A DNA stretch of 57,637 nt from Candidatus Thioglobus sp. (GTDB lineage Bacteria > Pseudomonadota > Gammaproteobacteria > PS1 > Pseudothioglobaceae). Position 1 is the stretch's first letter. Each line of letters starts with the position of its first letter. A program made the translations under genes and the position numbers. Under the pieces are notes generated by a model that did no database searches, had not been told where the DNA came from, and saw nothing but the letters and a program-made list of their open reading frames with translations. The stretch lies in the NCBI GenBank assembly GCA_012959965.1, contig DUCF01000052.1, positions 34,394-92,030 on the forward strand, read 5' to 3'. This document shows positions 20,870 to 31,788 of this stretch, one piece after another.

Positions 20870-21529
20870 ATGAGCACAATGATTGATGATGTAAAAGCCA
20901 TGGATTCTTACATTAACCGCAAGGTTGATACTGAGTCTGTTGCCTCGTTTAAGGGTAACGAGCACATTATTAAACTCAACTTTACCTTTGATATCAAACT
21001 TATCCGCGAGGCGCTGGATGATATTAAATTAAAGTCCGAATTTAAAACAGCATGTTCGGGTTTTCACGCCTTGGCGATGACCAAAAGAAAAGGACACTCT
21101 GTTGACAACGACAAAGACCTGATAGGGCGATACTACACCCGCGTGGATGACTCTTACCAAGAAATTGCTAAAGATGAGTTGGTAGATGAGGCTGCATTCA
21201 CTGAGTTGGTAGATGTATTCAGGGGTACTTATTTTGAGCATATTCATCAACAGCTTTCATCTCGCTACCCAATAGGCCGAGTTCGTATTCTTGAGAAGGG
21301 CGTCTTTAATTGCAACTCTTGGCATCGCGACCCAGAGCCGCGCATTCACATTCCGATCGTTACCAACCCGGGCGCTTTATTTATCGTTAACCATCACTGC
21401 ACGCATTTGCCCGCAGATGGCTCTGTTTACTTTACCGACACTCGGGGTTACCATACCGCCCTTAATGGCGGTGACCAGCCAAGAACCCACCTTGTGGCTG
21501 CGCTTGCCTACCCAGAATACCAGCCTTAA
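20870..21529 (+). CDS. Aspartyl/asparaginyl beta-hydroxylase-like 2-oxoglutarate oxygenase
   Basis: 219-residue Fe(II)/2-oxoglutarate oxygenase. The signature is complete: HRD with H152 and D154, then RIHIPIVTNPG, a distal histidine H195 in DTRGYHTALN and the 2-oxoglutarate-binding R205 in QPRTHLV. This is the Asp/Asn hydroxylase (AspH) and cis-proline-hydroxylase pattern. Such enzymes hydroxylate a free or bound amino acid. GGGGAG precedes the ATG. The stop is two bases from the start of a threonine aldolase gene. This suggests that the product is a beta-hydroxy amino acid that the aldolase cleaves; that functional link is inference. Confidence 0.85.
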   Translation: MSTMIDDVKAMDSYINRKVDTESVASFKGNEHIIKLNFTFDIKLIREALDDIKLKSEFKTACSGFHALAMTKRKGHSVDNDKDLIGRYYTRVDDSYQEIAKDELVDEAAFTELVDVFRGTYFEHIHQQLSSRYPIGRVRILEKGVFNCNSWHRDPEPRIHIPIVTNPGALFIVNHHCTHLPADGSVYFTDTRGYHTALNGGDQPRTHLVAALAYPEYQP

Positions 21530-21531
21530 TT

Positions 21532-22596
21532 ATGACAAGTCAATACGCCAAACTAAATATTGCAAACAAAGAGCCGACAGATTGTATCGACTTTAGAAGT
21601 GATACGGTCACTCTACCATCTGCAGAGATGTTTCAAGCTATGGTGGAGGCAAAATTAGGCGATGATGTTTATGGCGAAGATAGAGAGACCAACGATTTAC
21701 AAGATTATGCGGCTGAGCTTTTAGGCAAAGAAGCCGCCCTGTTTTTTCCAACTGGGACACAAAGTAATCTCAGCGCTATTTTGTCGCACTGTCAGCGAGG
21801 CGATGAAGTGTTGATTGGTCGTGAGTACCATACCAATGTGTATGAGGCGCACGGTGCCTCGGTTCTTGGTGGTGTTGGTATTTGCACGATTGATACCAAT
21901 CATCGTGGCAGCATCTCTGTTAAAGACATGCTTAGCCAAATTAAGGCCGACGATCCTCATTTTGGTATTACAAAATTACTTTGCCTGGAAAACACGGTTT
22001 CGGGTCGAGTGCAGCCTCAGGAGAAAATTAACGAGTTGGCAGACGCTGCACATGCGCATGGCCTCAAGGTGCATTTGGATGGTGCGCGATTATTTAACGC
22101 CCATATCCACTCAGGCTTGTCGTTAAAAGATTTATGTTATAGTCTGGATAGTGTTTCTATTTGCTTGTCAAAAGGTTTGGGCTCACCAGCCGGCTCTTTA
22201 CTGGTGGGCGATCACGAGACCATTAGAAAAGCAAAACGCCTTAGAAAGATACTGGGCGGCGGCATGCGCCAAGTAGGTGTTCTGGCTGCTTGTGGTATGT
22301 ATGCGTTGAAAAACAACGTGATCAGATTACTAGAAGATCACGATAATGCTCGCCGACTAACCCAGGGCTTGTCGGAGTGTAAAGACCTGCAAGTTGGAAT
22401 TGATGAAGCACAAACAAATATGACATTTTTTCATTGCCCAAAAGAGCACAGAGAGAACTTGCAGGCATTTTTGCTTGAGAACAATATACTGGTTCCCAAG
22501 CTTTCATCGGCGTCTCGACTGGTGTGTCACTTGGGCGTGTCGAAAGCTGACGTTGATTTTACCGTTGAGGTTGTTCAGCACTACTTTAAAGATTGA
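21532..22596 (+). CDS. Low-specificity threonine aldolase (PLP)
   Basis: Cleaves beta-hydroxy-alpha-amino acids such as threonine to glycine and an aldehyde. The 354 residues start with IDFRSDTVTLPS and contain HLDGARLFNAH (D183 contacting PLP) and the Schiff-base lysine K214 in CLSKGLGSPAGS. The gene is placed two bases after the oxygenase stop with no ribosome-binding site of its own, so translation is very probably coupled. The substrate may therefore be a hydroxylated amino acid other than threonine. Confidence 0.92.
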   Translation: MTSQYAKLNIANKEPTDCIDFRSDTVTLPSAEMFQAMVEAKLGDDVYGEDRETNDLQDYAAELLGKEAALFFPTGTQSNLSAILSHCQRGDEVLIGREYHTNVYEAHGASVLGGVGICTIDTNHRGSISVKDMLSQIKADDPHFGITKLLCLENTVSGRVQPQEKINELADAAHAHGLKVHLDGARLFNAHIHSGLSLKDLCYSLDSVSICLSKGLGSPAGSLLVGDHETIRKAKRLRKILGGGMRQVGVLAACGMYALKNNVIRLLEDHDNARRLTQGLSECKDLQVGIDEAQTNMTFFHCPKEHRENLQAFLLENNILVPKLSSASRLVCHLGVSKADVDFTVEVVQHYFKD

Positions 22597-22641
22597 TATA
22601 GTTCATCACAATCTCCGTGTTGAGGCAAAACTTCAGAATGG

Positions 22642-23973
22642 CTACGACGGTTTGCCCATAATTAGATCCAACAAATCCTTGACGTTGTCTTCTTTATCTA
22701 GGTTTTTAATCAGCTTGATTAGCTTATTTTGTTTTGAGGTTGTGATAATGCCCTTGGTCAATTGATTAAATTTTGTTTGAATGTCTTCATTGCTCAAAGG
22801 GTTTTCAACATCCCCCCTGGCTTCAATATTTTCAGTCTCCAGTATGTCGCCATTTTGAAGAGTGATAGCAACGTCTGCGAAGCGTTTTGCAGGGAAGGCA
22901 TCTGTGTGGCTTTGGTTTTCTTTAAGTTTTACTTTGTCTTGAAGTTGCCTAATAACGGGATCATTAAGTGAATTTTCATTCATCTCTTCAGCGCCAATTT
23001 TGCCTTTGGCGAGCATTGCGGCAACAGGGTAACCTATGGAATATTGCGCTTCATCGCTGGAAGTGGGTTGTTTATTCGCTAAGCGTACAGCATGATGGAA
23101 AGTGCTGATTTTGATCTCTTTAATATCTTTTATATCGAAAGAGAATTGCTTTTGTAGTGTAACTACAGCCTCGACTGCTGGTTGAGCCCATCGACAGATG
23201 GGCCACGGTTTAAAATATTGATTTAATAACTCGTAACGCAGAAAATAATCTTTTTCGTCTGCTAGAGTGACGCTTAAGGCGGGCGCACCAGTAAATCCTT
23301 CTTGTGCCATATACACTGAGCTAATGCCCGCCAAAGCCCCCCAACCAGCACCATCTTTAACCATGGTTGGCTGATCAATACAGCGCATCATAGGACTTCT
23401 TGGTGCATAATATTCGGCAATACCGAGAGCATGGCTTAACTGGCTTTGGTTTAATTGCAAGAGCTTTGCACCCATTGCGGCAACACCAATGGGCGCCCAT
23501 GCGCCCGAAGTGTGATATTCCTCTGTGCTTTTATGTAATTCAATACCGGTTCGTAGAGAAACTTCGTAACCAATTACCAGTAGCTCCAAGAAATACTTAC
23601 CAGAGATGGTTGTTTTTTCATTACTCAGGTAATCCACCATAGCTAATAGTGATGGCAGTACAGTGGCGCCCGCGTGACCCTTGGTCAATCTATGGCCGTC
23701 ATGAGCGTCTAGAGAATCAATTAAAATTGCTCCAGAGAATGCCGCTCCTGGCACTGAACAAGTGCCATCAAAGCCCAGAAGTCGGGAACGGCTATTATTA
23801 CTGGGGCCAAACTGGATGGTCGCAAATCTGGATGCAATTCGTGCCGCCAAAGTTGTCTGGGCAGCAATTGCTACACCAATTGTGTCCAAAAGGCAACGTT
23901 TGGACATTGTTTGAACTGTAACTGGCAGCTCATTCCAGTCCATATCAGCGATGAAGTTATGAATGTTTTGCAA
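22642..23973 (-). CDS. MmgE/PrpD family protein
   Basis: 443-residue member of the 2-methylcitrate dehydratase (PrpD)/cis-aconitate decarboxylase/iminodisuccinate-epimerase fold. Recognised by the N-terminal CLLDTIGVAIAA segment, DAHDGHRLTKGHAGATVLPSLLA near residue 125 and the GVAAMGAKLLQL region. It starts with TTG (family N-terminus, GGAAAA upstream). No prpB or prpC is nearby, so propionate metabolism is unlikely. The gene carries the same 66-base promoter element as the ABC importer on the other side of the GlxA-type regulator. It therefore probably acts on the compound imported, as a dehydratase, epimerase or decarboxylase. Confidence 0.86.
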   Translation of the reverse strand: MQNIHNFIADMDWNELPVTVQTMSKRCLLDTIGVAIAAQTTLAARIASRFATIQFGPSNNSRSRLLGFDGTCSVPGAAFSGAILIDSLDAHDGHRLTKGHAGATVLPSLLAMVDYLSNEKTTISGKYFLELLVIGYEVSLRTGIELHKSTEEYHTSGAWAPIGVAAMGAKLLQLNQSQLSHALGIAEYYAPRSPMMRCIDQPTMVKDGAGWGALAGISSVYMAQEGFTGAPALSVTLADEKDYFLRYELLNQYFKPWPICRWAQPAVEAVVTLQKQFSFDIKDIKEIKISTFHHAVRLANKQPTSSDEAQYSIGYPVAAMLAKGKIGAEEMNENSLNDPVIRQLQDKVKLKENQSHTDAFPAKRFADVAITLQNGDILETENIEARGDVENPLSNEDIQTKFNQLTKGIITTSKQNKLIKLIKNLDKEDNVKDLLDLIMGKPS

Positions 23974-24344
23974 TAGGATTTTCCTGTGTAAAGATCTAGT
24001 CCCTGTGTCAGTAATTGATTTTTTATCTGGTTTATATTGCCGCTAATTGCTCGTGGTTTTTATAAAACCAATCTTTTAGGATTGCAAAGAGCTTTTAATG
24101 CATGCAAATTGTAAACCACCATTACATCTATAAAATATCTCAAAAACGACTATTTTTAGCATATATGCGACATCTTTACTGTTTTTGTCCACAAAAAATT
24201 GATGTGCGGTTAGCCGTAACAAGCCAATAAACAATAAGTGGAGTGAGTGATTATCAAAGCCACCCAAGACAATGCAAGTACCACGCTAGTCATTAACAGC
24301 TAGCGCCGATTATTTATTAAAGGTTGAGTATATATGTACGCTTT
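23974..24344. other. Intergenic region between the MmgE/PrpD gene and the GlxA-type regulator gene
   Basis: No gene is seen in these 371 bases. They hold the MmgE/PrpD leader with a 7-bp inverted repeat at 24054-24070 (TGGTTTT, TAT, AAAACCA), the shared promoter element at 24106-24171, and a 6-bp inverted repeat at 24284-24305 (CGCTAG, CTAGCG). The last may end the regulator transcript but lacks a T run. Confidence 0.6.
24106..24171 (-). promoter_or_regulatory. Activator-type promoter element in front of the MmgE/PrpD gene
   Basis: Read on the minus strand the element is GTCG, 17 bases, GTCGTTTTTGAGATATTT, 13 bases, GTGGTTTACAATTT. The two GTCG half-sites are 21 bases apart, two helical turns, as AraC-family operators often are. 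TACAAT at 24108-24113 can serve as the -10 box. The same architecture recurs at 25420-25485 with 50 of 66 positions identical. Confidence 0.72.
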
Positions 24345-25373
24345 CTAGGTACGGTTCCTTGTTTCTCTGGGTGTGAATTTATAATAGTCTTTATAGCATT
24401 TGGAAAAATATGAAGGCGAAGTGAAACCGCATCTTTCACCCACTATAGACATACTATCGTTAGTTTCTCGAAGCAGAAGGTTGGCTTTCTCAAGTCGTAA
24501 GTGCATATAGACAGTGTGTATATCGAGATGAAAGTTTTTCTGAAATAATCGCTCCAAGTGTCGAACTCCAATATTGACATTTTGCGCCAATTGTTTGATT
24601 TTCTTGGGCTCGTGTAAGTGAGTCAGCATGAATGTCAATGTTCTTATAACAGTAGGATTGTGTACTTTATATTGTTCAACTAAGCTAAGTTTGTGCTTTT
24701 CACTAGGGGAGCGGTCAGCCGGGTACAAAAAATACTCAGCAATCTTTTTTGACAGAATAGCACTTTGTTGCTGTTGGATGAGTTTAAGTATCAAGTCAAG
24801 ACATGTAAGCCCACCACTGCATGTTAGCACTCCATCATTAACTTCATAGAGATTATTTGTTAAGTTGAGATTGGGAAATTCTTCTGAGAAGAGCTCCCTG
24901 CTTTCCCAGTGAACGGTGCAGCGCCTATGATTAATGACGCCAGCAAAAGCCAATATAAAAGCTGCAGTTGAGGCGGCACCTATCTGAGTGTTGCTTCTTT
25001 GGGCTTTTTTTAAAAAAAATTTTATTTTTTTCGTGTAGTGTTGGTGTACATAGTTTCCGGAGATCAGCCAAAGGTAGTCACCCGTATAAGATTCATCTAG
25101 TTGGGCGGTTGGCAGGTGAACAATACCATTGCTAGCAGACACCGGTAGATTGTTTATAGTAACAAGCTCCCAGGCATAGATTTTTTCAGTGACAACATCA
25201 TTGGCCATTCTCAGTGGCTCTATAAGAGAAGCGAATGAAAGAAAAGAAAAGTCATTTAATAATAAAAAATAAAAAGTAATAGGCGTCTTTCCATCAATGA
25301 GTGGCTTAGTTGCTGTATCAGTTTGACAAATTTTTCTTATTTTTTGTTTTTCCAATTGCTTAATAGTCACCAT
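24345..25373 (-). CDS. GlxA family AraC-type transcriptional regulator
   Basis: 342-residue regulator with an N-terminal DJ-1/PfpI-like domain (about 30-200, containing LIEPLRMANDV and IGAASTAAFILAFAGVINHRRCTVHW) and a C-terminal AraC/XylS double helix-turn-helix (about 240-340, ending FTSPSYFSKCYKDYYKFTPRETR). The nucleophile-elbow cysteine of true DJ-1 hydrolases is replaced in IGAAST, as expected for a sensor. Relatives (GbdR, CdhR, ArgR of Pseudomonas) activate uptake and breakdown of betaines, carnitine or arginine. It sits between the ABC importer operon and MmgE/PrpD, both bearing the same operator-like element, so it is the likely activator of both. Confidence 0.9.
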   Translation of the reverse strand: MVTIKQLEKQKIRKICQTDTATKPLIDGKTPITFYFLLLNDFSFLSFASLIEPLRMANDVVTEKIYAWELVTINNLPVSASNGIVHLPTAQLDESYTGDYLWLISGNYVHQHYTKKIKFFLKKAQRSNTQIGAASTAAFILAFAGVINHRRCTVHWESRELFSEEFPNLNLTNNLYEVNDGVLTCSGGLTCLDLILKLIQQQQSAILSKKIAEYFLYPADRSPSEKHKLSLVEQYKVHNPTVIRTLTFMLTHLHEPKKIKQLAQNVNIGVRHLERLFQKNFHLDIHTVYMHLRLEKANLLLRETNDSMSIVGERCGFTSPSYFSKCYKDYYKFTPRETRNRT

Positions 25374-25419
25374 GTTTGAAGCTATATTAGCTTATTGTAT
25401 CTAATTATTGGGTAATAAA

Positions 25420-25485
25420 GTCGTATTTATGATACTTCTGGTCGTTTTTGAGATATTTAATTAATCATATTGTGGTATACAATTT
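25420..25485 (+). promoter_or_regulatory. Activator-type promoter element in front of the ABC importer operon
   Basis: GTCG at 25420-25423 and 25441-25444 are 21 bases apart. The second begins the 18-base block GTCGTTTTTGAGATATTT, and after exactly 13 bases comes GTGGTATACAATTT with TACAAT as probable -10 box at 25478-25483. A copy with identical spacing faces the MmgE/PrpD gene on the other strand at 24106-24171. The element is also 47-90 bases upstream of the divergent regulator gene. Confidence 0.75.
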
Positions 25486-25600
25486 ATCTACATTAAAAGA
25501 TTCTTGGTGATCTTGGGGCGCGGTTTTATAAAAACTGCAAGTTATTAATAATATTTTTCTCAATGAGATACAACGACCTCTTGGCTACAATTTAATGTGA

Positions 25601-25627
25601 AAAATAAGATGCGGAGCATCTTATTTT
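25601..25627 (+). promoter_or_regulatory. Strong hairpin in the leader of the ABC importer operon
   Basis: A perfect 12-bp stem (AAAATAAGATGC with GCATCTTATTTT) and a GGA loop lie 35 bases before the start codon of the substrate-binding protein gene, followed by a T-rich stretch. No gene on this strand ends nearby, so it belongs to the importer's own leader: an attenuator, an mRNA-stabilising stem or a processing site. Confidence 0.6.
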
Positions 25628-25661
25628 GTTTCATCATTTTTTATCTTAATAGGAGAGTTAT

Positions 25662-27320
25662 ATGAGTAAGGAGACGATTAACGGTTTGCCGTTACATCCA
25701 GCAATCTCGATGTACAAGGAAGAGGTGTTGGATAATAAACTTTCGCGACGTGAGTTTTTAGTACGCGCATCGGCTTTAGGGGCAACATCTGTCGCTGCAT
25801 ATACCATGCTCGGCTTGGTAGCGCCATCAACGGCCATGGCTGCAACGCCAAATCAAGGCGGAACAATGCGCCTACAAATGGACGTTCGCGGGCTTAAAGA
25901 TCCGCGCACTTACGACTGGTCAGAAATTGCTAACTTTACCCGAGGCTGGCTAGAGTATTTGGTTCAGTTTAATAGTGACGGTACTTTTGAAGGTCGCTTG
26001 TTAGAAAGTTGGTCTGCGAATGCTGACGCTACTCAGTACACACTTAACGTTAGAAAGGGAGTTACTTGGAATAACGGCGATGCCTTTACTGCAGCTGATG
26101 TTGCGCGTAATATCGAGGGCTGGTGTGATAAGAGTGTAGATGGTAATTCTATGGCCGGTCGAATGAATAGTTTGATTGACGCTGATACAGGTAAGGCTGC
26201 AGCCGGTGCAATTGTGGTTGTGGATGATCATACGGTTCAATTAAACTTGCCATCGCCGGATATTACTATTATTCCTGGTATGGCAGATTATCCTGCAGCG
26301 ATTGTCCATTCGTCCAGCACTTCAGAGACAATGTTGAGCAATCCAATTGGTACGGGACCTTATATACCTGATGGCCACGAGGTAGGAATTAAGGCGGCCT
26401 TAGCCAGAAACACTAACCACCAATGGTGGGGAGAGGGGGCATACTTGGATCGTATTGAGTTTATCGATTATGGCACCGAAACTTCTGCCAAAGTTGCCGG
26501 CGCAGAATCTGATGAGTTTGATATGAATTATCAAGTAGTGGGTGAGTATGTTGATATTTTTGACGGCATGCCCGGATGGCAACAATCTTCAGCAGTAACC
26601 GCCTCAACAATTGTTATTCGTTGCAATCAAGATGCAGAAGTTGGTGGGATTAAACTTTACCAAGATAAAAACATCCGTCGTGCTTTAGCGATGTGTGTTG
26701 ATAATTCTGTAGTTTTGGAGTTGGGTATTGACGGTAGAGGCACGCCAGCGGAAAATCATCATGTTTGTCCAATTCATCCAGAGTATGCAGAACTGCCTCC
26801 TCAGGTTGTAGATCGCGACAGAGCAATGGCTCTGATGTTTGAATCTGGCCTTGGTAGTCATGAGCACGAGTTGATCTCAATCGATGATGACTGGCGTCGT
26901 AACACAACAGATGCTGTTGCCGATCAAATTCGTAAATCTGGCATCAAGGTTAAGCGCACGATTCTTCCAGGTTCTACTTTCTGGAATGATTGGGTTAAGT
27001 ACCCATTCTCTTCAACCAACTGGAATATGAGACCATTAGGTGTTCAAGTCCTTGCTCTTGCCTATCGTTCTGGTGAGGCTTGGAATGAGTCGGGCTTTAA
27101 TAACGCTGAATTTGACGAGACTTTATCTAAAGCGGTAGCAATTGCTAATGCAGATGAGCGCCGAGTTTTGATGAAGCGTTTACAGCAAATCATGCAAGAC
27201 GAGGGCGTTGTTATTCAGCCATACTGGCGTTCTCTATATCGCCATCATAAAGAAGGCGTGTTGGGTGGCGGCATGCATCCAACTTTTGAGATACACCTTC
27301 ATAAGTTAGGTTGGGCTTAG
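25662..27320 (+). CDS. ABC transporter substrate-binding protein, peptide/opine family (SBP_bac_5), Tat-exported
   Basis: 552-residue periplasmic binding protein. The N-terminus has a twin-arginine signal: SRREFL at 28-33, a hydrophobic stretch ([19 protein letters not shown]), and AMA before the mature end at about residue 60. The body has the family pattern [22 protein letters not shown], then [10 protein letters not shown] and NKNIRRA-like [11 protein letters not shown]. Related proteins bind di- and oligopeptides, opines, nickel or sugars. AGGAGAG precedes the ATG. It is separated from the permease genes by two hairpins, one a good terminator, which should give more binding protein than membrane subunits. 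The ligand is not evident; see the MmgE/PrpD link. Confidence 0.9.
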
Positions 27321-27329
27321 ATCGCCAAC

Positions 27330-27392
27330 AATAAGGAATCATGTAGATGATTTCCTTATTTATAAAAGAGGTCGCATTAGCGACCTCTTTTT
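27330..27392 (+). terminator. Tandem hairpins with intrinsic terminator inside the ABC operon
   Basis: The first hairpin (27330-27360) has a 13-14 bp stem with one bulged base. The second (27364-27391) has a 12-bp GC-richer stem, AAAAGAGGTCGC with GCGACCTCTTTT, an ATTA loop and a T run. This is a convincing intrinsic terminator 45 bases after the binding-protein stop and 65 before the permease start. Partial read-through, or a separate permease promoter, is implied. Confidence 0.82.
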
Positions 27393-27456
27393 ATATATTA
27401 TTAACGTGTTTAACTGTGATTTCTTATATCAACAAACTGTATAGATAAGGTTTCTT

Positions 27457-28503
27457 ATGTGGCAATTTATTACTAAAAGATTTGGACTGATGGTGTTAAC
27501 AACATTGTGTTTGAGTTTTATTGTTTTCTTTCTCACTAATTTACAGCCCAACCTAGTAAAGCTAGCAAAAACTGAAGCCGGCATCCGGATGACTGATGAC
27601 CAGGTTTTGTCTTGGCTGGGTGATCGTGGCTATAATCAGCCATTATTGTTGCGATATGGTGAATGGCTTGGTGTTGTGCCAGGGTATGTGCATACTGATG
27701 AAGAAGGTCGGACGCGTGGTCGTTGTATCAGTCCTCATGTAAAAGACACACCCACTTATTGCGGCCTTTTACAAGGAACTTTGGGCAACTCCACGATTTT
27801 CAATGTATCTGTAGGAAAGGCTTTAGCTACACGATTGGGGCTGACAGGTATTTTGATGTTCTGGGTAATGATTGTCATGATACCCATGGCGCTCATTATT
27901 GGAATATTTGCAGGGATGCGTGAAGGCTCTAAGACGGACCGAGCGCTTTCAACGGTTGCTATCGGTTTTACTGCGACACCAGAATACATCTCGGGTGTTA
28001 TTTTGTCTGTTATTTTTGCTAGTCGACTCGTATTTGACGAAAGGTTTTTATTACCATCCGCTCAATCCGCAATGGAGAATATGAGTTTTAGTAACTTCGC
28101 TTTACCGGTAATGACGATGGTGCTTTATGGCATGGGCTATATTGCCAGAATGACACGAGCCTCCATGGCTGAGGTGATGACAGCGCAATACATTCGTACA
28201 GCCCGGTTGAAGGGTGTTAGTTTTCCAAATATTGTTTTTAAGCACGCGCTTAGAAACGCATTAATAGCGCCATTTACTGTGATTATGTTGCAATTTCCTT
28301 GGCTCTTGACGGGAGTTGTGATTGTTGAAACATTATTTAACTACAAGGGCTTTGGCTGGTTGTTGGTCATGGCGGCTGACGGTAACGACGTTGAGTTGTT
28401 ATTGTCTTGTTCGCTGGTGGCAGTTTTGGTTGTTTTGGTTACACAGCTAATATCAGATATTGGTTATGTCTTTTTAAATCCAAGAATAAGAGTGAGCTCT
28501 TAA
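27457..28503 (+). CDS. ABC transporter permease (DppB/OppB type)
   Basis: 348-residue inner-membrane permease. It starts with the family's helix FGLMVLTTLCLSFIVFFLTNLQP and ends with the BPD_transp_1 domain. That domain includes the EAA loop in TARLKGVSFPNIVFKHALRNALIAPFTV, which contacts the ATPase. A periplasmic insertion of about 60 residues follows the first helix, as usual for DppB relatives. AAGG precedes the ATG. The second permease follows after nine bases. Confidence 0.92.
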   Translation: MWQFITKRFGLMVLTTLCLSFIVFFLTNLQPNLVKLAKTEAGIRMTDDQVLSWLGDRGYNQPLLLRYGEWLGVVPGYVHTDEEGRTRGRCISPHVKDTPTYCGLLQGTLGNSTIFNVSVGKALATRLGLTGILMFWVMIVMIPMALIIGIFAGMREGSKTDRALSTVAIGFTATPEYISGVILSVIFASRLVFDERFLLPSAQSAMENMSFSNFALPVMTMVLYGMGYIARMTRASMAEVMTAQYIRTARLKGVSFPNIVFKHALRNALIAPFTVIMLQFPWLLTGVVIVETLFNYKGFGWLLVMAADGNDVELLLSCSLVAVLVVLVTQLISDIGYVFLNPRIRVSS

Positions 28504-28512
28504 AGTATTGTT

Positions 28513-29682
28513 ATGGCATCATTGAGTTGGATAGAAATAATCGCCCAAATATTACTGCAATTTATGCCAGTATGGATTGCAATGGCATTAACCTTTTCTG
28601 TCTCTTATTATTTTCGCGACAAACTGGGTCTTTACGGCCGTTTATTTGATACTTATACCGGCAGTATCGGTTTTGCTTTGGTTATATTTTGGTTGTTTAC
28701 CGCAATCTTCGCAGATCTAATTATAACCTTTGACCCAATTGATCAGCTGTCAGGGATGCGCAAAAAAATACCTGGAGCTCTAGTTCCAGAAACTTTTAAT
28801 GCCTATTTATTGGGTGGCGATTTGATGGGTCGAGATGTCTTCTCGAGAATGGTGATGGGGTCACGCATAGTACTTTCAATTGCCCCAGCTGCCACTATTT
28901 TTGCCTTTATGGTGGGCATTACACTTGGCTTGCCGGCCGGCTTTTATGGCAAAAGGCTCGACACTATTTTGTCATTTATTGCGAATTTAGTATTAGCATT
29001 TCCGGTTATCCTCTTGTTTTACCTACTGGTTAATCCTGCCATCCGTTCAACAGGAATTCCGGTAGTGATAGCGGCTGTGCTTTTTTTATTCCCTATTATA
29101 TTTTTTGCTGTCCTTTTCCAGTCGAGATACTACGTTCAAGCCAACAAGCGAAACATTTATGTTGGCTTAACTTTACTACTGGGTTTTTGGGCTTATTCAG
29201 GTCTTGCATTTAACCAAGATCCGTTGCAATTATTGGGACTTGAGCCTATTTTTTATATGGACCCAAACTTGCTTAACATCTTTGTTTCTGTAGTTTTTGT
29301 TAATGCGCCAACGGTATTTCGAATTGTTCGAGGTCTAACGATGGATTTAAAAACACGGGATTATGTTGCCGCCGCGCAAACTCGGGGGGAGGGTGCTTGG
29401 TTTGTTATGCTTTGGGAAATTCTACCTAATGCTAGAGGTCCTTTAATTGTTGATTTCTGCCTGAGAATTGGCTATACAACTATCCTTTTAGGTACGCTAG
29501 GATTTTTCGGATTAGGTGTCAGCCCTGAAAGTCCGGATTGGGGAATGACAATTAATGAGGGCCGTAAACTTTTGGCATACTTTCCTCATATGGCAATCCC
29601 GCCTGCATTGGCACTACTGTCGCTCGTGTTGGGACTTAACTTACTAGGCGATGGCTTGAGAGAGCAGTCATTAAAGGACTAA
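28513..29682 (+). CDS. ABC transporter permease (DppC/OppC type)
   Basis: 389-residue partner permease, longer than the usual 290-300 residues. An extra N-terminal membrane region precedes the typical GGDLMGRDVFSRMVMGSRIVL motif near residue 100. Additional hydrophobic segments (about 175-250) are inserted before the EAA loop AAQTRGEGAWFVMLWEILPNARGPLIVDF. The C-terminal LGFFGLGVSPESPDWGMTINEGR is standard. It is spaced three bases from the ATPase gene. The extended form is a useful marker for a subfamily. Confidence 0.91.
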   Translation: MASLSWIEIIAQILLQFMPVWIAMALTFSVSYYFRDKLGLYGRLFDTYTGSIGFALVIFWLFTAIFADLIITFDPIDQLSGMRKKIPGALVPETFNAYLLGGDLMGRDVFSRMVMGSRIVLSIAPAATIFAFMVGITLGLPAGFYGKRLDTILSFIANLVLAFPVILLFYLLVNPAIRSTGIPVVIAAVLFLFPIIFFAVLFQSRYYVQANKRNIYVGLTLLLGFWAYSGLAFNQDPLQLLGLEPIFYMDPNLLNIFVSVVFVNAPTVFRIVRGLTMDLKTRDYVAAAQTRGEGAWFVMLWEILPNARGPLIVDFCLRIGYTTILLGTLGFFGLGVSPESPDWGMTINEGRKLLAYFPHMAIPPALALLSLVLGLNLLGDGLREQSLKD

Positions 29683-29685
29683 ACA

Positions 29686-31788
29686 ATGACAGAATCTAAT
29701 ATTCAAAGTCCTATTTTAGAAATTGACAATCTTTCGATCAGCTTTTTCACGCGCCTGGGTGAAATCCCTGCGGTAATGAACTTTTCTTGTGTTCTTGAAC
29801 AAGGTAAGGCCTTAGGGCTTGTGGGAGAGTCAGGCTGTGGAAAATCAACGGTTGCACTCGGTGTTATGCAAGACTTAGGTGTTAATGGTTCCATTGTCGG
29901 TGGGTCCATTAAGTTTAAAGGTCGTGAGCTAAATAATATGCCACAGAGCGAACTGTCTAAATTAAGAGGTTCAGAAATTGCAATGATTTACCAAGAGCCG
30001 ATGGCCTCCCTGAATCCTGCAATGAGAATTTCTAAGCAGCTTATGGAGGTGCCAATCACTCATGAAAATGCAAGTGCGAAAGAAGCTTGGGCTTTGGCAC
30101 TTGAGGTGGTAAAAGATGTGCGTCTACCAGACCCGGAGCGCATTTTAAACAGTTATCCGCACCAGCTTTCAGGGGGTCAGCAGCAGCGCATTGTTATTGC
30201 AATGGCATTGATGTCTAAACCCTCTTTATTGATATTAGATGAGCCCACAACTGCGTTAGACGTCACTGTTGAGGCTGGTATCGTGGACTTAGTTAAAGGC
30301 TTAGGCGAAAAGTACGGCACATCGATGCTGTTCATTTCTCACAATCTTGGTTTGATATTAGACACTTGTGATGATATTTGTGTCATGTATTCAGGCGAGG
30401 CGGTTGAAACAGGCTCTATATACGACGTTTTTGATCGTATGCGCCACCCTTACACACAAGCCTTGTTTCGCTCGATCCCTTTGCCAGGCGCCGATAAAAA
30501 TCAGCGACCTTTGGTTGCCATTCCAGGAAATTTCCCACTACCACATGAACGACCTCATGGCTGCAATTTCGGGCCACGCTGCAATTACTTTGAGAGTGGG
30601 GTTTGTGATGAAATTGAAATTGACATGCAAGAGATGAGTGATAATCAACGTCACGCCTCTCGATGTAAAAAAATAGATATCATCGATTGGCAGGCCGATA
30701 ATACAATAAAAGCCGATTACAAGCCATTATTGGTTGGCGATAAAGTTATTGAGGTTGAGAATTTAACAAAATATTACGAAATCTCAGCTAATGCTTTATT
30801 TAGTGGCAAAGAAAAGAGCGTTGTAAGGGCTAATGAGTCACTTTCTTTTTATGCGAGAGAGTCTGAAACGTTGGCAATCGTTGGAGAATCCGGCTGTGGC
30901 AAGTCGACGCTAGCTAAAGTGCTAATGGGGCTTGAGACGGCCACCTCTGGTAAAGTCTCGCTTAATGGCAAGTCTATTGCTGGTACAGCTATTGGTGAAC
31001 GCTCGAATGAGATTGTCTCTTCAATTCAAATGGTCTTTCAAAATCCATTTGACACTCTTAATCCTTCAATGACCATTGGTAGGCAGATAATTCGCGCCCT
31101 TGAGGTTTTTGGATTTGGCGAGATTGAATCTGAACGTCAAAATAGAATGCTGGAGTTGCTTGACTTAGTTAAACTCCCTAGAGAGTTTGCAATAAGGAAG
31201 CCACGACAATTATCTGGCGGGCAAAAACAACGAGTAGGTATTGCGCGCGCCTTTGCTGGAGATGCGCAAATTGTTATCGCTGATGAACCAGTTTCAGCGC
31301 TTGACGTTTCTGTGCAAGCTGCGGTCACACATTTGCTGATGGAGTTACAACGTAAAAATGGCACAACAATGCTGTTTATTAGTCACGACTTATCTATCGT
31401 GCGTTATATTGCGGATCGTGTGATGGTGATGTATCTAGGTCATGTCGTTGAAACTGGCAATACCAATCAAGTTTTTGCACCTCCGTATCATCCTTATACT
31501 GAGGCTTTATTATCTGCGGTGCCAATAGCTGATACCAGTGTCAAACGAAAACATATTGTTTTGAAGGGTGATATCCCATCTGCAGTTAACCCGCCTTCAG
31601 GCTGTCCGTTCCAAACTCGTTGCCAACACAAGCATTTGGTAGAAAACAATTTATGTGAGAAGGAATTACCAGATACAATTGATGTTGCAAATGGACATCA
31701 ATTACGATGTCACTTATCAAGTGAACATCTAGCGGCAATGAAGCCGGTAATTAAACTAGCTGGCGATTCTATAGTAGTTGGCGGCTAG
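29686..31788 (+). CDS. Fused ABC transporter ATPase (DppD-DppF type)
   Basis: 700-residue protein with two complete ATPase modules, each followed by the oligopeptide-transporter C-terminal domain. Module 1 has Walker A GESGCGKST at 47-55, the signature LSGGQQQR and Walker B LLILDEPT. Module 2 has a second GESGCGKST near residue 403, LSGGQKQR and IVIADEP. Each accessory domain has the iron-sulfur-like cysteine group (CNFGPRCNYFESGVC and CPFQTRCQHKHLVENNLC). It powers the importer as a single chain instead of two subunits. Its 3' end overlaps the convergent clc gene by 33 bases. Confidence 0.94.
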   Translation: MTESNIQSPILEIDNLSISFFTRLGEIPAVMNFSCVLEQGKALGLVGESGCGKSTVALGVMQDLGVNGSIVGGSIKFKGRELNNMPQSELSKLRGSEIAMIYQEPMASLNPAMRISKQLMEVPITHENASAKEAWALALEVVKDVRLPDPERILNSYPHQLSGGQQQRIVIAMALMSKPSLLILDEPTTALDVTVEAGIVDLVKGLGEKYGTSMLFISHNLGLILDTCDDICVMYSGEAVETGSIYDVFDRMRHPYTQALFRSIPLPGADKNQRPLVAIPGNFPLPHERPHGCNFGPRCNYFESGVCDEIEIDMQEMSDNQRHASRCKKIDIIDWQADNTIKADYKPLLVGDKVIEVENLTKYYEISANALFSGKEKSVVRANESLSFYARESETLAIVGESGCGKSTLAKVLMGLETATSGKVSLNGKSIAGTAIGERSNEIVSSIQMVFQNPFDTLNPSMTIGRQIIRALEVFGFGEIESERQNRMLELLDLVKLPREFAIRKPRQLSGGQKQRVGIARAFAGDAQIVIADEPVSALDVSVQAAVTHLLMELQRKNGTTMLFISHDLSIVRYIADRVMVMYLGHVVETGNTNQVFAPPYHPYTEALLSAVPIADTSVKRKHIVLKGDIPSAVNPPSGCPFQTRCQHKHLVENNLCEKELPDTIDVANGHQLRCHLSSEHLAAMKPVIKLAGDSIVVGG

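Follow-up and report, generated by a model that had tools for sequence, protein, structure and literature searches.

In the stretch of Candidatus Thioglobus sp. DNA analyzed here (57,637 nucleotides, hereafter the window), a gene for an AraC-type regulator lies between an ABC importer operon and a gene for an MmgE/PrpD family protein, which are read away from each other. The locus raises the question of whether these two flanking units are controlled together by the gene that separates them and, if so, in response to what kind of compound. An earlier note on this DNA had proposed that two copies of a 66-base activator promoter link the importer to MmgE/PrpD across a GlxA-type regulator. The features on which the following analysis draws are collected in Table 1.

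Table 1. Features of the locus, with their positions in the window; the sister genome is the second genome of the genus found to carry the same genes.
Feature	Position	Strand	Basis or remark
Element A, predicted operator-promoter of MmgE/PrpD	24106..24171	-	66/66 vs sister genome
Element B, predicted operator-promoter of the importer operon; contains a -10 box and two GTCG half-sites at a 21-base period	25420..25485	+	64/66 vs sister genome
Proximal half-site of A, the same 18 bases as in B	24133..24150	-	
Proximal half-site of B, GTCGTTTTTGAGATATTT, which extends to the expected -35	25441..25458	+	
Distal half-site of B (GTCGTATTTATGATA); first bases shared with a possible -35 of the regulator's divergent promoter	25420..25434	+	Sequence reading
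-10 box TACAAT, PrpD promoter	24108..24113	-	Sequence
-10 box TACAAT, importer promoter	25478..25483	+	Sequence
TACAAT box, candidate regulator promoter with a -35 position that overlaps the distal half-site of B	25394..25399	-	Predicted; stretch conserved in sister genome; not in 4-of-6 scan list
Full ungapped homologous arm, PrpD side (promoter and leader)	24044..24179	-	
Full ungapped homologous arm, importer side	25412..25547	+	
Second promoter-like block, ATGAGA-N17-TACAAT	25563..25591	+	Only 25575-25591 lies in the highly conserved importer-leader stretch
12-bp hairpin, importer leader	25601..25627	+	Kept in sister genome with changed pairs; z -2.5 and -2.3
2OG/Fe(II) oxygenase-like protein, HxD...H; possible pathway partner	20870..21529	+	Asp_Arg_Hydrox-like, just below model cut-off
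Threonine aldolase-like PLP enzyme; possible pathway partner	21532..22596	+	
MmgE/PrpD family protein, TTG start	22642..23973	-	Nearest solved: cis-aconitate decarboxylase, iminodisuccinate epimerase
Regulator, 342 aa; DJ-1/PfpI (GATase-1-like) domain and AraC helix-turn-helix, GbdR/CdhR group	24345..25373	-	
Family 5 solute-binding protein; twin-arginine motif (SRREFL) near N-terminus	25662..27320	+	
Importer permease 1 (DppB/OppB type)	27457..28503	+	
Importer permease 2 (DppC/OppC type)	28513..29682	+	
Fused double ATPase (DppD-DppF type)	29686..31788	+	

The repeated element and the regulator between its copies

A base-by-base check confirmed that the 66-base element upstream of the importer recurs on the opposite strand upstream of the MmgE/PrpD gene, with 50 of 66 bases identical and no gaps. 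The details given for it in the earlier note also held: both copies contain the exact 18-base core, a GTCG 21 bases upstream of this core, and GTGGT(A/T)TACAATTT after a gap of 13 bases, and they point at different operons, element A at the MmgE/PrpD reading frame and element B at the importer operon (25662-31788). To assess chance similarity, 2000 dinucleotide shuffles of the two intergenic regions were scored for their best ungapped 66-base match, which averaged 33.6 identical bases and never exceeded 40, as compared with 51 in the best-placed pair of 66-base segments of the actual sequence. Allowing up to 3 mismatches, no third site resembling the 18-base core was found within the window (0.10 expected), and two such loose matches were obtained in 1 of 100 shuffles. 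Beyond the four bases GTCG, the two half-sites of the importer copy resemble each other at 12 of 15 positions at a lag of 21, and those of the PrpD copy at 9 of 15.

The ungapped homology does not stop at the downstream border of the element and runs on for about 60 bases through the leaders. Of the next 65 downstream bases 38 agree (17.2 +/- 3.6 in shuffles), while upstream of the element 22 of 60 do. This extension into the leaders indicates that promoter and leader were duplicated as one, in inverted orientation, and the operator-promoter part of the duplicated segment appears to have been held constant after the duplication.

With the TACAAT boxes at these positions, the proximal GTCG half-site extends to where a -35 would be, the arrangement of class II activation. 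The overlap with the expected -35 that the earlier note had predicted is therefore borne out by position, and no -35 passing a 4-of-6 scan was detected in either element, so that by position and scan the two sites show the features of class II activator promoters, a proximal site over the -35 and no good -35 of their own. AraC class II promoters such as pBAD have tandem half-sites with 21-base spacing, the proximal one over the -35; the layout of half-sites in the window is alike, whereas the regulator subgroup, the half-site letters and the ligand differ. With the distal half-site of B lying over the candidate -35 of the divergent regulator promoter, the regulator probably controls its own gene as well.

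In the importer leader, positions 25575-25661 are highly conserved and hold both a second TACAAT box and the 12-bp hairpin. The scan for promoter-like sites of this kind returned 9, compared with 5.5 +/- 2.2 in shuffles, so the second block is weak by itself, and in the sister genome (G019) its TACAAT part is conserved and its ATGAGA part is not. Given this block, the importer may have a start besides the one at the element's TACAAT box: its transcription may begin about 110 bases downstream, at the second block, which may represent another start or else a processing or attenuation feature.

The product of the intervening gene matched Pfam PF01965 and PF12833 above their cut-offs, giving the N-terminal DJ-1/PfpI-like domain and C-terminal AraC helix-turn-helix that define the GATase-1/AraC group. 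Its best NCBIfam match was GbdR (NF052371), aligned over residues 25-340 with 253-255 bits; this is below the cut-off of 480, so the protein is not GbdR itself. The AraC/GlxA assignment of the earlier note needs changing in that the protein is better placed in the GbdR/CdhR branch than with GlxA in general. Its start codon is uncertain (25355-25373), as in the sister gene a stop codon precedes a TTG matching approximately codon 7 here.

CdhR of Pseudomonas aeruginosa binds GGTCGC-N15-GGTCGC, a site called very similar to those of GbdR, SouR and ArgR; it is described there as a class I activator that binds further upstream, in the caiX-cdhR region, and its autoregulation is reported (PMC5806209). 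Two direct (G)GTCG half-sites with a 21-base period, the operator form of this regulator group, are present in both copies of the element in both species. The element of the window shares with the CdhR operator the four-base core GTCG and the 21-base direct-repeat period and mostly does not keep the outer bases of GGTCGC: the leading G (GGTCG) is found only at the proximal half-site of B, and the full GGTCGC at none of the half-sites of the window. Both caiX-cdhR and the window place a GATase-1/AraC regulator beside a transport-and-catabolism operon, with autoregulation reported there and proposed here. The window differs from the CdhR arrangement in having two duplicated sites that abut -10 boxes and in its targets, a family 5 importer and MmgE/PrpD. 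Since the site abuts the -10 box, its geometry is AraC-like rather than CdhR-like. The GbdR regulon, which mediates the glycine betaine response, provides the closest NCBIfam model and a site described as very similar to that of CdhR (PMC5806209), but its targets differ. Among open-access titles and abstract openings, no published account of this cassette was recognized.

Conservation, mobility and related loci

A search for the regulator at E 1e-60 found it in 3 of 193 genomes, these being the genome of the window itself, the sister genome of the same genus (79% identity) and a distant one (38%). The sister genome contains the whole cassette with gene order unchanged and with 79-95% protein identity. 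While the two elements are fully or almost fully identical between the genomes (Table 1), the non-coding DNA adjoining them is 78-83% identical, the spacer between the first two importer genes 85%, and coding DNA 86-91%. The 66 bases of element A form the longest identical run of the 9.1-kb alignment, followed by a run of 65 bases in permease 1, and coincide exactly with borders that the earlier note had set by a different comparison. When alignment columns were permuted, a 66-base block this clean had a P of 0.00017 for element A and 0.0054 for element B.

The earlier note had called for a search of related genomes, and we searched 83 genomes of the order, of which 49 are at least 90% complete. 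GTCG-N17-GTCGTTTTTGAGATATTT (up to 2 mismatches) occurred in 2 of the 83, with two copies each, all beside the regulator, and the reversed-pattern control yielded 0 in every genome. A longer pattern was searched in three genomes; the genome of the window has two copies only, and in both carrier genomes the copies flank the regulator. The exact element is known from these two genomes only, both of one genus. A 35-base pattern with up to 3 mismatches gave 5 matches in the genome of the window (the two elements exactly, and three sites with 3 mismatches) versus 6 for its reversed control, which puts the three extra matches at chance level and reveals no further members of the regulon. No match to a 39-base pattern was found in IMG/VR.

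The binding protein is likewise sparsely distributed, being found at E 1e-60 in 3 of 115 genomes, its own included. In the sister genome the cassette sits elsewhere, and the point of insertion in the window, between the aldolase gene and a ClC channel gene, is empty there. From this patchy distribution across genomes the cassette was probably moved horizontally, and the PrpD-regulator-importer unit is best described as a probable horizontal acquisition. In the window this block (22587-31788) is a 9-kb insertion between convergent genes, with no repeats visible by eye at the printed junctions. Next to it lies an oxygenase-aldolase pair (20870-22596); other lineages have relatives of this pair linked with the same importer. 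In the sister genome, pair and cassette are not linked.

Relatives of the binding protein yielded 154 candidate stretches in named genomes, with occurrences in Roseobacter-group, SAR116, Oceanospirillaceae and Granulosicoccaceae records, and the best 80 of the 154 were used. Among these best 80, a PrpD relative was present in 7 and a regulator relative in 7 (tblastn, 1e-10), and clustering of open reading frames within 9 kb placed MTTB in at least 8, an oxygenase of the 20870 type in at least 6 and the regulator cluster in at least 5. The cluster counts are lower bounds owing to many short contigs and a crude ORF caller, and some GC-rich clusters are opposite-strand ORFs.

Three of these loci, of Oceanospirillaceae type (L020, L021 and L022), combine the importer and PrpD with a regulator 34-35% identical to that of the window, and also hold co-directional MTTB, oxygenase and threonine aldolase genes; they are related to each other and therefore not independent. 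Their repeated element differs from that of the window, reading TTGTCGATTTAGTNTC and then, in most copies, TTGAATG-C/T-TA. It stands before the MTTB-dioxygenase-aldolase operon in 3 of 3 loci, before PrpD in 3 of 3 and before the importer in 2 of 3: at the L021 importer it was not found, and a TauD-type gene intervenes, while the L020 importer copy is weak and was missed at 1 mismatch. In none of the three loci did any of 1000 shuffles attain the similarity between the MTTB and PrpD upstream regions; for the importer and PrpD upstream regions, the number of shuffles out of 400 that did so was 0 in L022, 2 in L020 and 372 in L021. A search of the three whole genomes for the core pattern (up to 1 mismatch) gave 7 matches (2, 2 and 3), every one of them in this locus; as the reversed control gave 1, 1 and 2 matches, the counts alone prove little, and it is the location that carries weight.

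By reading, the distance from GTCG to the -10 region in these loci is about 35-36 bases, similar to that in the window. No GTCG distal half-site was recognizable at -21: a search for GTCG repeats of 21-base period returned, in L020-L022, only proximal GTCG sites, and in L031 nothing convincing. Upstream of MTTB and of the importer, L020 and L022 have, besides the GTCG element, a common leader with a GAGGCTAT...GCCTC-like inverted repeat, by which promoter and leader seem to have been duplicated together there too. No shared element was found in three regulator-less loci that have the importer together with PrpD or a dioxygenase (L023, L051 and L086), a lack that fits the logic of control by the regulator but shows that this arrangement is not universal.

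The importer neighborhoods of one large Roseobacter-type group, judged mostly from clustering, did not name a substrate; in one of them (L024) the three upstream genes encode a member of the amino acid kinase family, an IPP transferase and an AraC-type regulator without a DJ-1 domain. A further set (L046, L050, L054 and related loci) has a binding protein about 61% identical and no permease match in the fetched stretch, and these copies adjoin genes that read like benzoyl-CoA and homogentisate degradation.

Explanations for the repeated element

We consider it likely that the two elements are duplicated, activator-dependent sigma-70 promoters of class II under the intervening regulator, which together form one small regulon. 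Such a reading had been offered in the earlier note, and it gains from the conserved footprint, the confinement of the element to the flanks of the regulator, the GTCG geometry, the lack of a -35 and the recurrence of the arrangement elsewhere, a basis that is comparative rather than experimental. In the proposed mechanism, the GbdR/CdhR-type regulator would bind the two tandem GTCG half-sites, placed by their 21-base period on one face of the helix. The proximal subunit would sit over the missing -35 and help RNA polymerase onto the TACAAT box, so that transcription from one copy would enter the importer operon and from the other the MmgE/PrpD gene, and the distal half-site in the importer copy would also serve autoregulation of the regulator gene. 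A ligand, either the imported compound or a product of it, would raise uptake and processing together. PrpD, regulator and importer travel as one 9-kb cassette. The system looks functional and belongs to a known kind, in which an operator of GATase-1/AraC type is present in duplicate, once in front of each of two target operons; what is new is its wiring and the pathway.

The least improbable of the competing explanations is that the duplicated segments are promoters of another regulator, and that the gene between them is only a neighbor. The genome does encode a second GbdR-like regulator, located beside carnitine genes, and binding by the intervening regulator is a prediction. Yet a search of the genome (up to 2 mismatches) found the element nowhere else, and in both carrier genomes it is this regulator that the two copies flank. 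No GTCG-N17-GTCG was found in the 14 kb around the second GbdR-like regulator, and in L020-L022 a repeated element again accompanies a regulator of this group; we judge this explanation improbable. That the conserved part acts in RNA, as a leader element and not as a DNA operator, is suggested by the homology that enters the leaders and by the conserved hairpin of the importer leader. The conserved 66 bases, however, end just past the -10 box and hence upstream of the expected start, the leaders surrounding them are only 78-81% conserved relative to the sister genome, and for the PrpD leader 65 of 200 shuffles folded equally well, which leaves an action in RNA very unlikely.

Inverted arms that flank exactly one gene could also be recombination sites that flip the regulator gene, or marks left by a small transposon. 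We give this slightly less weight again, as the longer pair of arms is only 73% complementary, with an 18-base exact core, and conservation between species is concentrated in the operator-promoter part and not spread across the arms. Furthermore, the orientation of the regulator relative to its neighbors is unchanged in both genomes, and the unit that moved is the whole 9-kb cassette. Least likely of all is a recent duplication without function that has simply not yet diverged: although the homology does reach beyond the element, each species has both copies, every copy agrees with the corresponding one in the other species, and divergence has affected the flanks but not the element.

Candidate substrate and pathway

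Duplicated promoters under one regulator would place uptake and MmgE/PrpD in one response, and the earlier note had taken the imported compound to be the MmgE/PrpD substrate or its precursor. The predicted co-regulation fits this, and because genes for MTTB, a 2OG-type dioxygenase and a threonine aldolase are also present in related loci, the PrpD protein is probably one of several steps. Its own sequence places it at superfamily level only (Pfam), with 47-67 bits against three NCBIfam 2-methylcitrate dehydratase PrpD equivalogs whose cut-offs are 458-950. Iminodisuccinate epimerase and cis-aconitate decarboxylase are its nearest solved relatives by sequence and predicted fold, but at only 18-24% identity in the fold search, and this kinship does not name the reaction.

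Regulators of the GbdR/CdhR group answer to glycine betaine, carnitine, sarcosine or arginine, and MTTB relatives demethylate quaternary amines. In addition, eukaryotic trimethyllysine hydroxylase and its aldolase resemble the oxygenase and aldolase pair that adjoins the cassette. Our best guess for the substrate is an N-methylated amino acid or a betaine-like compound. In the oxygenase of the window the HxD...H residues are invariant, and its predicted fold, a middling model (mean pLDDT 73), comes closest to that of a 2OG hydroxylase from nucleoside antibiotic biosynthesis, whose PDB code appears in a paper with a title on beta-hydroxylation (PMC9814697). The neighboring aldolase is nearest to L-allo-threonine aldolases.

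A more specific proposal, which we regard as doubtful, is that the genes of the regulon take part in an undescribed marine route by which an N-methylated amino acid or peptide is processed, such as one resembling trimethyllysine. The compound would be imported by the family 5 system, beta-hydroxylated by the oxygenase, split by the threonine aldolase in a retro-aldol cleavage to glycine and a betaine aldehyde, and processed further by MTTB, PrpD and carnitine genes. The genome encodes a carnitine 3-dehydrogenase (736 bits, cut-off 592), a beta-keto acid cleavage enzyme, MTTB and the second GbdR-like regulator together. Against the route, no element was found in the window before either the oxygenase or the aldolase gene, and in the sister genome this pair is separate from the cassette. 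The absence from the genome of a TauD-type enzyme like that of L021 (at E 1e-10) also counts against it.

The carnitine genes lie on another contig of the same genome (L121, contig C49, 85-5457), where a contig-end MTTB fragment, an SDR, the carnitine 3-dehydrogenase and the beta-keto acid cleavage enzyme form a carnitine-degradation-like cluster beside the second GbdR-like regulator, followed by genes that read like those of the methylcitrate cycle.

If the proposed route were true, it would amount to a bacterial equivalent of how carnitine synthesis begins in eukaryotes. For the organism, the locus offers a regulon operator that can be read from sequence and is directly testable. For the wider family, it links a marine importer of wide distribution with MmgE/PrpD and, in some lineages, also with MTTB, a 2OG-type oxygenase and an aldolase, and so leads to a testable pathway. 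That two lineages share this wiring but not the operator letters suggests, furthermore, how a regulator and its sites may change together.
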